From: Sphingomonadaceae bacterium
GTDB taxonomy: Bacteria; Pseudomonadota; Alphaproteobacteria; Sphingomonadales; Sphingomonadaceae
Direction: 5' to 3'
DNA length: 64,000 nt
Assembly: GCA_027533105.1 (NCBI GenBank)
Contig: JAPZTW010000008.1
Location: 248,001 to 312,000 of the forward strand
The translations under genes and the position numbers were made by a program. The notes under the pieces were generated by a model. That model was not told the DNA's origin, did not search any database, and saw only the letters and a program-made list of their open reading frames with translations. Within the stretch, counting starts at the first letter, position 1; every line of letters starts with the position of its first letter. Shown piece by piece: positions 40,747 to 59,460 of this stretch.

Positions 40747-43599
40747 ATGACTGAAGCGCGCGATTATCGAGACACCGTCTTCCTGCCGAAGACCGAGTTC
40801 CCCATGAAGGCCGGCCTCCCCCAGAAGGAGCCGGGCATTCTGGCGCGCTGGAACGATATTGGCCTCTACCGCCAGCTGCGCGAGGCCCGCAGCGGACGTG
40901 AGAAGTTCGTGCTCCACGATGGCCCGCCCTATGCCAATGGCGACATGCACATCGGCCACGCGCTGAACCACATCCTGAAGGACATGGTGGTCCGCACCCA
41001 GAGCCTGCTGGGCAAGGACGCGCCCTATGTGCCCGGCTGGGACTGCCATGGCCTGCCGATCGAGTGGAAGGTCGAGGAGCAATACCGCAAGAAGAAGCTC
41101 GACAAGGACCAGGTCGACCCGGTCGAGTTCCGCGCCGAATGTCGCGCCTATGCCCAGCACTGGGTCGATACCCAGCGCGAGCAGCTGAAGCGCCTGGGCA
41201 TCAATGGCGATTGGGACAAGCCCTACCTGACGATGGACCCCGAGGCGGAAGGCACGATCGTTGCCGAACTGCTGAAGTTCGCGGAAAGCGGCCAGCTCTA
41301 TCGCGGGGCCAAGCCGGTGATGTGGTCCCCGGTCGAAAAGACTGCCCTCGCCGAAGCCGAGGTCGAATACGAGGACATCACCTCGACCCAGATCGACGTG
41401 GCCTTCGACATCACGGAATCGCCGATTGCCGAACTGGTCGGCGCCCATGCGGTGATCTGGACCACCACGCCCTGGACCATCCCGACCAACCAGGCGATCG
41501 CCTATGGGCCGGAGGTGGAGTATGTGTTGCTCGATGCCAGTCCGATCCGCGTCCTGATTGCCAAATCGCTGGCTGATGCTGCTTTCCGCCGACTGGCCAA
41601 TGCGGGTATTCTGGCCCTCGATCCGACGGAGCCTTCGTTCCGCGCCGACGATGTCGTTTGGGAAGGCAAAGGCTCCGATCTCGCGGGCACCATCGCCCGC
41701 CACCCGATGCACCACCTCGGCGGGTTCTTCGCCAAGCCGCGTCCGCTGCTCCCCGGTGACTTCGTCACCACCGACAGTGGCACGGGCCTGGTCCACATGG
41801 CACCCGACCACGGCGAGGACGATTTCCTGCTGTGCAAGGCGCACGGGATCGAACCGGTCTTTGCGGTCGAGGGCGATGGCAAGTACCGCGCCGACTGGGG
41901 CTGGCTGGGCGGGCAAGGCTCGGTCATCAACCCCAAGTTCAACGCGCCCGACGGGCCGATCTGTTCGGACCTGCGCGAGACCGGCGCGCTGCTGGCGGCC
42001 TCGGCCGATTACAAGCACTCCTACCCGCACTCGTGGCGCTCCAAGGCCAAGGTGATCTTCCGCTGCACGCCGCAATGGTTCGTGCCGATGGACAAGATCG
42101 TCGTCCCGGCGGACGCCGGGACCGGTGGCGAGGAAGCGCAGGACGGCCAGCGGTCCCGGGTCAAGCCCGGGACGACGCTGCGGCAGAATGCCATGGCCGC
42201 CATCGCCGCCACCCGCTTCGTCCCCGAAAAGGGCCGCAACCGCATCGGTTCGATGGTCGAGGGCCGCCCCGACTGGGTGCTCAGCCGCCAGCGCGCCTGG
42301 GGCGTGCCGATCACCTTGTTCGTCCACCGCCAGTCGGGCCAGTACCTGGTCGATCCCGCCGTCAACGCCCGGATCATCGCGGCGGTGAAGGCCGAAGGCG
42401 TCGATGCCTGGTCCGCCGCCCGCGCGCAGGAGTATCTTGGCTCTGATTACCAGGCCGAGGACTACGAGCAGGTCACCGACATTCTCGACGTCTGGTTCGA
42501 TTCGGGCTGCACCCATGCCTTTGTGCTCGAATCGGGCCGCTGGCCGGAACTGAAGTGGCCGGCCGATCTCTACCTTGAAGGCTCTGACCAGCATCGCGGC
42601 TGGTTCCAGTCGAGCCTGCTGCAGTCCTGCGCCACCCGTGGCCGCGCGCCTTATGAGGCGGTGCTGACCCACGGCTTCACCATGGATGCCAAGGGCCTGA
42701 AGATGTCGAAGTCGGTCGGCAACACGGTCGACCCGCTGAAGGTGATGGAAACCTATGGCGCGGACATCATCCGGCTGTGGGCGCTGTCGGTCGATTTCAC
42801 CGAGGATCACCGCATCGGCGACGAGATCCTGAAGGGCGTGGCCGACCAGTACCGCAAGCTGCGCAACACCTTCCGCTATCTGCTGGGCGCGCTGGATGGG
42901 TTCAGCGATGCCGAAGTGGTGGACGTGGCCCAGATGCCCGAGCTGGAGCGCTATATGCTCGGCCAGCTCAAGCAGCTGGATACCGTGCTGCGCCAGGCGA
43001 TCGCGGATTTCGACTTCAACGAATATACCCGCGCGCTGACCGATTTCTGCAACGAGGACCTGTCGGCCTTCTTCTTCGATATCCGCAAGGACCGGCTCTA
43101 TTGCGACGATCCAGCCGGGATCGAACGCCGGGCTTATCGCACCGTACTCGATCACCTGTTCCAGGCGCTGGTCCGCTATGCCGCACCGGTGCTGGTCTTC
43201 ACCGCCGAGGAAGTCTGGACCACCCGCTATCCCGACAGCGGCAGCGTCCACCTGACCGAACTGGCCGACCTGCCCGAGGCCTGGCTTGACGAAGCCCTGG
43301 CCGAACGCTTTGCCACCCTGCGCGCCCTGCGCGGCCAGGTGCTGGAAGCGATCGAACCGCTGCGGCGCGAGAAGGTGCTGGGCTCGGGCCTGGAAGCCGA
43401 GGTGACCGTACCGGCCGACGCGCCCGAAGGCGATCTGGCCGAGTTGTTCATCACCGCGAAAGTCGTGCGCGGGCAAGGCGACGGCGTGACCGTTTCGCGC
43501 ACCACCGACCACAAGTGCGGCCGCTGCTGGCGCCATCTGCCCGAGGTGACGGCGGACGGGGCCTTGTGTGCCCGTTGTGATCCCGTGGTGGGCGCATGA
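40747..43599 (+). CDS. ileS: Isoleucyl-tRNA synthetase, containing an in-frame palindromic element
   Basis: DGPPYANGDMHIGHALNHILKD, RPDWVLSRQRAWGVPI, KMSKSVGN; insert region VVPADAGTGGEEAQDGQRSRVKPGTT at 42099-42177. Confidence 0.96.
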   Translation: MTEARDYRDTVFLPKTEFPMKAGLPQKEPGILARWNDIGLYRQLREARSGREKFVLHDGPPYANGDMHIGHALNHILKDMVVRTQSLLGKDAPYVPGWDCHGLPIEWKVEEQYRKKKLDKDQVDPVEFRAECRAYAQHWVDTQREQLKRLGINGDWDKPYLTMDPEAEGTIVAELLKFAESGQLYRGAKPVMWSPVEKTALAEAEVEYEDITSTQIDVAFDITESPIAELVGAHAVIWTTTPWTIPTNQAIAYGPEVEYVLLDASPIRVLIAKSLADAAFRRLANAGILALDPTEPSFRADDVVWEGKGSDLAGTIARHPMHHLGGFFAKPRPLLPGDFVTTDSGTGLVHMAPDHGEDDFLLCKAHGIEPVFAVEGDGKYRADWGWLGGQGSVINPKFNAPDGPICSDLRETGALLAASADYKHSYPHSWRSKAKVIFRCTPQWFVPMDKIVVPADAGTGGEEAQDGQRSRVKPGTTLRQNAMAAIAATRFVPEKGRNRIGSMVEGRPDWVLSRQRAWGVPITLFVHRQSGQYLVDPAVNARIIAAVKAEGVDAWSAARAQEYLGSDYQAEDYEQVTDILDVWFDSGCTHAFVLESGRWPELKWPADLYLEGSDQHRGWFQSSLLQSCATRGRAPYEAVLTHGFTMDAKGLKMSKSVGNTVDPLKVMETYGADIIRLWALSVDFTEDHRIGDEILKGVADQYRKLRNTFRYLLGALDGFSDAEVVDVAQMPELERYMLGQLKQLDTVLRQAIADFDFNEYTRALTDFCNEDLSAFFFDIRKDRLYCDDPAGIERRAYRTVLDHLFQALVRYAAPVLVFTAEEVWTTRYPDSGSVHLTELADLPEAWLDEALAERFATLRALRGQVLEAIEPLRREKVLGSGLEAEVTVPADAPEGDLAELFITAKVVRGQGDGVTVSRTTDHKCGRCWRHLPEVTADGALCARCDPVVGA
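42099..42177 (+). repeat. 79-bp palindromic element, copy B, in-frame within ileS
   Basis: CGTCGTCCCGG...CCGGGACGACG perfect 11-bp inverted termini; internal hairpins; 59/79 identical (hand-aligned, ungapped) to 48961-49039. Confidence 0.85.
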
Positions 43600-48960: not shown

Positions 48961-49039
48961 TGTCATCCCGGCGCAGGCCGGGATCGCTGGCCTGGCAGCG
49001 CCTTCTTGCCAGCGGTCCCGGATCAGGTCCGGGATGACA
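48961..49039 (+). repeat. 79-bp palindromic element, copy A, intergenic sucC-etfB
   Basis: TGTCATCCCGG...CCGGGATGACA perfect 11-bp inverted termini; internal inverted repeats CGCTGGC/GCCAGCG; ungapped homology to 42099-42177. Confidence 0.88.
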
Positions 49040-59313: not shown

Positions 59314-59376
59314 GGCCTGCTCCTTTCAAGCACACCATCGCACGGCACGCCTGGCCGGACTGCCGCGAACGACGAC

Positions 59377-59408
59377 AAACCCGGGCAGACGGAGGCCTGC
59401 CCGGGTTT
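59377..59408 (-). terminator. Terminator downstream of the DUF1153/SciP gene
   Basis: AAACCCGGGCAG-ACGGAGGC-CTGCCCGGGTTT: perfect 12-bp stem. Confidence 0.7.
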
Positions 59409-59460
59409 GCAGTCTACACCAGCCGCAAACATCTGTCGCGGCGGATGTTTTCGGAATGGA

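Follow-up and report, generated by a model that had tools for sequence, protein, structure and literature searches.

A CGTC-tagged REP pair within sphingomonad ileS lies in a codon slot occupied by palindromes of several families

The closest described elements are the CGTC-tagged REPs, a superfamily presented by Di Nocera, De Gregorio and Rocco in 2013 (PMC3733652). In the sections of that article drawn on here, each unit carries an unpaired CGTC-type tag (with TGTC and CCTC variants) at one end and folds into a stem of 8–9 bp with a loop of 4–5 nt, A-T pairs almost always occupying stem positions 1 and 2; the units are multi-copy, dispersed and mainly intergenic, often form inverted pairs and have no associated transposase. 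Copies within genes are described in the same sections for tRNA synthetase genes of E. litoralis and S. alaskensis and for truB, and insertion at the same site is noted there only for recB of two Xanthomonas. Rickettsia palindromic elements (Ogata 2000, 2002; reviewed in PMC10969869) are palindromes that unrelated genes carry and translate in frame, and an earlier note on this DNA had named them as a precedent; the parallel is apt, given that RPE-4 and RPE-6 of R. conorii are classed as CGTC REPs in the sections cited (PMC3733652).

Here, we describe a CGTC-tagged REP pair inside the ileS gene of a Novosphingobium-group genome (G000), found in a contiguous stretch of 64,000 nucleotides, hereafter the window. 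Measured against the cited sections of PMC3733652, it matches the CGTC REPs in its tag, 8-bp stems, 4- and 5-nt loops, inverted pairing, alphaproteobacterial host and absence of a Y1/RAYT (PF01797) match, but differs from the cases given there in that a single codon slot holds palindromes of six or more families and has changed state at least 36 times, and in that the family occupying a tsaD slot is not the same in two sister species. The synthetase case of E. litoralis or S. alaskensis may concern the same slot. With the Rickettsia elements the locus shares insertion in frame within genes, but the hosts are others and the same slot is here refilled by unrelated families. The single long hairpin made by two inverted REP units also recalls the REPINs mobilised by RAYT (TnpA-REP), although a cognate RAYT gene (Y1_Tnp) was not found in G000. 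RAYT-mobilised REPINs elsewhere are of the GTAG-tagged type. MITEs are likewise short and non-autonomous and have terminal inverted repeats (here 11 bp, perfect), but the comparisons of G000 with its sister genome G156 lack their target-site duplication. REPs within genes, synthetase genes included, are thus of a known kind; on REP insertions in synthetases of sphingomonads, literature searches turned up no source other than PMC3733652, and in mostly open-access literature we did not find a description of repeated filling of fixed slots by several families.

The REP pair in ileS and its family

The ileS gene (40747–43599, plus strand, as are slot A and both REP pairs of the window) encodes an isoleucyl-tRNA synthetase of 950 aa, identified by its open frame and IleRS Pfam domains. 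Aligning 206 ileS loci delimits a variable filler, slot A (42094–42177, residues 450–477), between the borders PQWFVPMD and LRQNA. Within it, blastn and covariation define the REP pair (42099–42177) as two inverted units with their tags outermost. The left CGTC tag (42099–42102), complementary to 42174–42177, is followed by a hairpin (42103–42122) with an 8-bp stem, a 4-nt GGAC loop and the arms GTCCCGGC/GCCGGGAC, and by a tail, CGGTGGC (42123–42129), that is largely complementary to the right tail, GCCAGCG (42146–42152). Between the tails lies a spacer (42130–42145) that varies among the aligned copies. The right hairpin (42153–42173) has an 8-bp stem, a 5-nt TCAAG loop and the arms GTCCCGGG/CCCGGGAC, and ends on the right tag GACG (42174–42177; CGTC on the other strand), whose ACG is the codon of Thr477, directly before Leu478. 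Both hairpins had been pointed out in the earlier note, as had the exact inversion of the ends, which we find to be a perfect match of 11 bp: CGTCGTCCCGG (42099–42109) is the reverse complement of CCGGGACGACG (42167–42177). The minimum free energy of the 79-mer is -57.2 kcal/mol (z about -6).

Read in frame, the 79-mer yields IleRS residues 452–477, IVVPADAGTGGEEAQDGQRSRVKPGTT. About 26 extra residues without a stop had been proposed; the frame is open throughout its 950 aa, but the net gain amounts to only 20–21 residues relative to the commonest short slot of relatives (7–8 aa). A single IleRS match was found in the genome (2.87 Mb, 13 contigs, about 99.8% complete), and therefore the enzyme must work with its insert; since this essential gene is single-copy and its frame is open, we infer that the insert is translated in frame. 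In an AlphaFold model of this IleRS (39 sequences; mean pLDDT 87, pTM 0.76), residues 458–467 of the insert are the only stretch with a pLDDT below 50, a coil between strand 437–446 and helix 478–488, and the insert is predicted to be a disordered surface loop. In solved bacterial IleRS structures the position of slot A is only a few residues wide.

A second pair of the window, TGTCATCCCGG...CCGGGATGACA (48961–49039), lies between two ORFs, is absent at the same place in G156 and, as had been observed, aligns with the ileS copy without gaps (77% identity over query positions 2–78). Searching the whole genome by blastn (E ≤ 1) gave 67 pieces with the ileS copy as query and 51 with the second window copy, which together collapse to about 35 CGTC REP loci. 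The idea of a dispersed palindromic family inside an essential gene, in frame, is thereby borne out, and the dispersed pieces, the fold z of about -6 and the covariation speak for more than chance. The consensus of 22 full-length copies is CGTC-ATCCCGGC-gcar-GCCGGGAT-CGCTGGC-(variable)-GCCAGCG-GTCCCGGR-tcarg-YCCGGGAC-GACG, with 96.5% of cells paired; changes on both sides of a pair occurred at five pairs in 18 cells, versus a shuffle mean of 5.5, and the signal was lost when partners were slid. Indeed, the ileS copy itself carries a paired change, from A-T to G-C at the first stem pair, and its first stem pair is G-C in both units. An xGTC tag is present in all 22 aligned copies, its first base being C in 20, T in one and G in one. 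The left unit begins with A-U in 18 of 22 copies, followed by U-A in all, and the right unit with G-C and then U-A; the units (8 bp/4 nt and 8 bp/5 nt), supported by covariation, fall within the 8–9-bp stems and 4–5-nt loops of CGTC REPs. The consensus tail is CGCTGGC, and CCA is the commonest though not a universal tail in the sections of PMC3733652 considered here.

Copies within genes supported by protein domains were found in G000 only in ileS, tsaD and the PDH E1-beta linker, among the 35 loci. The last is a single unit read as VVPAQAGTGGG between the lipoyl and transketolase-like domains (L030:419-1849, minus strand). Of the long stop-free frames that overlie other G000 copies, most lack a Pfam domain, and these were not counted as in-gene. 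Nor are the REPs unusually stop-free: frames were open in 64% of cases, versus 64% in shuffled copies, and therefore we claim no special coding bias. A search for the Y1/RAYT transposase gene gave no PF01797 match in G000, its controls matching in 5 of 14. Elsewhere in the window, a GC-rich inverted repeat (AAACCCGGGCAGACGGAGGCCTGCCCGGGTTT, 59371–59414) is terminator-like yet overlaps called ORFs.

Codon slots and their fillers among relatives

Is the filled slot peculiar to this genome? The stretch from PQWFxxMD to LRxxA is hypervariable in an alignment of sphingomonad IleRS. We combined 80 named loci, an even draw from the order and fetched regions, which gave 206 distinct ileS slots (5 of 221 loci were unparsed, mostly at contig ends or through anchor mismatches) of 3–70 aa: 77 short (<15 aa), 48 palindromic and 81 other. 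Outside the group the slot usually spans 3–9 aa, and more in Devosia (L167) and Pelagibacterium (L139); within the group it is short in many members and reaches 70 aa in others. An even draw of family genomes had 22 of 96 slots filled. The palindromic fillers, named here by working labels, comprise CGTC (7), SRLREG..PPASGRG (6), PLPEGE (15), STSLxTNG (8), LRQAQDER/PEPVEG (5), PPPAS (5) and others (2). We assigned them by hand from arms and peptides because blastn clustering of the slot DNA lumped WENEGG peptides with GC-rich repeat families; the count of 48 is somewhat uncertain owing to this assignment and to the 11 of 48 fillers with z above -4, and under a strict criterion based on the arms alone (16 of 18), 29 slots qualify. 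Their median fold z is -5.9 versus -0.2 for other long slots, with energies down to -146 kcal/mol. Five filler families are multi-copy in their carrier genomes: SRLREG, STSLxTNG, PPPAS and PLPEGE each match many other places there, as CGTC does in G000.

On a FastTree phylogeny of the 206 IleRS with the slot removed, the split between filled and unfilled slots needs at least 36 changes (INDEPENDENCE), and the six named groups, in the order listed, need at least 6, 6, 14, 8, 5 and 5; these changes are gains or losses, and some branches are weak. Closely related loci may differ completely, with 42 aa (L102) versus 8 aa (L182) at 94% nucleotide identity and 30 aa (L196) versus 7 aa (L107) at 89%. 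The content of the loop is clade-specific: the window peptide is common to the sister G156 and absent from the next relatives, so that the 206 loci do not share one conserved peptide. All 84 slot bases are identical in G000 and G156, though ileS overall differs by about 4%, and the CGTC pair most likely entered ileS in their common ancestor. These sequence comparisons show that palindromes from six or more families have entered slot A on many separate occasions; the ileS insert is one case of a recurrent process, which the earlier note had missed.

Three side observations concern the same region. Around slot A, about 200 bases are without differences between G000 and G156 (L061/L176), through constraint, recent exchange or chance. 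A non-palindromic slot peptide of 27–37 aa, ..KTPxEKRWENEGGAINPxEExLCAAPT, is conserved across genera (L112, L117, L118, L119, L203, L217 and about 30 more loci); its RWExEGG core resembles RWEGEGD of some repeat fillers, a likeness that may be coincidental or may mark the peptide as a filler domesticated long ago. In the complete genome of Hankyongella ginsenosidimutans (L153), the ileS frame is apparently broken shortly before slot A, by sequencing error or in reality.

Strict palindromes recur at two more ileS slots, B about 160 residues before and C about 410 residues after slot A. In valS, a comparison gene read in 52 family genomes, palindromes of several groups occupy reference residue 601 in eight or nine genomes, and others lie at residue 789 in three and at residue 568 in one; ileS is therefore not unique. 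A slot inside the TsaD domain (tsaD at L013:1139-2272; L394), empty in nearly all others, reads DRRPGLDPGPL..RRDD in G000 (a CGTC dimer), GASTGSARTE..VRPELVEGQ in G156 and SVRPEPVEGQ..STSSARTV in G213. The sisters G000 and G156 thus hold different palindrome families in one slot of a region that is 91% identical. The slot flanks diverge evenly by about 7%, and no recombination tract around the swap was seen in the G000/G156 comparison; therefore either the slot alone was exchanged or it was filled separately. Strong palindromes in the Sphingomonas/Sphingobium loci L142, L145, L149 and L168 (at about -520 residues) were not counted as in-gene since they lie before the likely ileS start; they are possible leader elements.

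Junctions, codon phase and competing explanations

We sought the flanks of 22 G000 copies in G156. Of the aligned copies, three (L035, L039, L047) are preserved there with hardly a letter changed, about ten places have no pair, one has a single unit (L046) and one the other family (L033, tsaD), a comparison of two genomes that does not separate gain from loss of pairs. At the places without a pair, the short spacers on both sides are wholly different, and no target-site duplication was seen in the G000/G156 junctions. This gives no support to a simple insertion with target duplication, as considered earlier; both flanking spacers are replaced by unrelated bases.

We consider it probable that the ileS insert, a CGTC REP pair, is translated as a disordered loop, and that REP pairs circulate in these genomes with tolerant loops of essential genes as safe harbours. 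REP pairs would be copied to many places in the genome; copies in essential genes would persist only if they preserve the frame and fall where neither length nor sequence is of much consequence, and a handful of permissive loops would be emptied and refilled, the junctions resembling a short replacement of bases more than cut-and-paste with target duplication. Two observations stand against pure tolerance: each slot group has one codon phase, and the 84 slot bases are identical between G000 and G156, albeit in a low-divergence patch. In slot A, the first base of the CGTC unit falls on the third codon position in 7 of 7 cases (for one, the right unit served to judge), and the reading is VxPAxAG; in slots B and C it falls on the first position in 15 of 17, reading RHPGEGRDP (Fisher p about 1e-4; 5e-4 once relatives are collapsed). 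One fixed nucleotide target at the slot junctions was rejected because repeat ends scatter; the phase bias nevertheless remains. It could arise from peptide selection or from the position of the target and, not being predicted by tolerance itself, hints at a preference for one or the other.

A directed process could account for the phase. It seems unlikely, if worth stating, that a site-directed or selected exchange swaps palindrome families in fixed codon slots of ileS, valS and tsaD, with a fixed phase per slot; if so, alphaproteobacterial REPs would spread by short replacement at preferred sites and not by transposition. Equally doubtful is targeted insertion, in which a nuclease or recombinase, or a RAYT acting in trans, would recognise the sites, so that recurrence would reflect target choice instead of tolerance. 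Besides the single phase per slot, in three phylogenetically separate CGTC cases (L061, L193, L216) the Leu codon of LR follows directly on the repeat's GACG end, ACG followed by Leu CTG is the commonest junction of short slots (22 of 77), and several unfilled relatives have GACG at the repeat-end position in slot C. However, families with different ends use the same slot, the distance between repeat end and slot border takes many values, and the unfilled G156 spacers have no visible common motif.

The extreme stability of the fillers, evident from the energies and the median z given above, would also suit a function in the mRNA, with a stem-loop that slows ribosomes or tunes mRNA stability and is regained when lost. 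We regard this as improbable: the 77 short slots and 81 long fillers without unusual hairpins include close relatives of filled ones, the valS and tsaD slots lie at unrelated positions, and a palindromic source already explains the strength of the hairpins. Hairpin insertions in coding sequences are a hallmark of mitochondrial byp elements, and a ribosome might likewise bypass the hairpin here so that the peptide is not made; this is very improbable, as the fillers are stop-free and in frame (with the few unparsed loci mostly explained by contig ends or anchors) and under bypassing the filler lengths would not need to be divisible by three. That the slot peptide is an ordinary conserved IleRS insertion, repeat-like through GC-rich chance, recalls relatives with conserved non-palindromic peptides such as HIEPKTPREKRWENEGGAINPAEEDLCAAPT (37 loci) but is refuted for the window insert, which matches dozens of dispersed copies and whose peptide is conserved no further than one sister species.

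Implications for REP spread and for essential enzymes

The slots bear on how REPs without a transposase spread and on the fate of mobile DNA inside essential proteins. Being refilled dozens of times, they constitute a natural replicate experiment: one fixed position offers many junctions, phases and families for comparison, and species with 94% identity over ileS differ in whether this essential enzyme carries a filler. They also warn against taking every variable peptide of these enzymes for a functional domain, since some of these peptides are repeat DNA, and they mark insertion-tolerant loops of IleRS, ValRS and TsaD.
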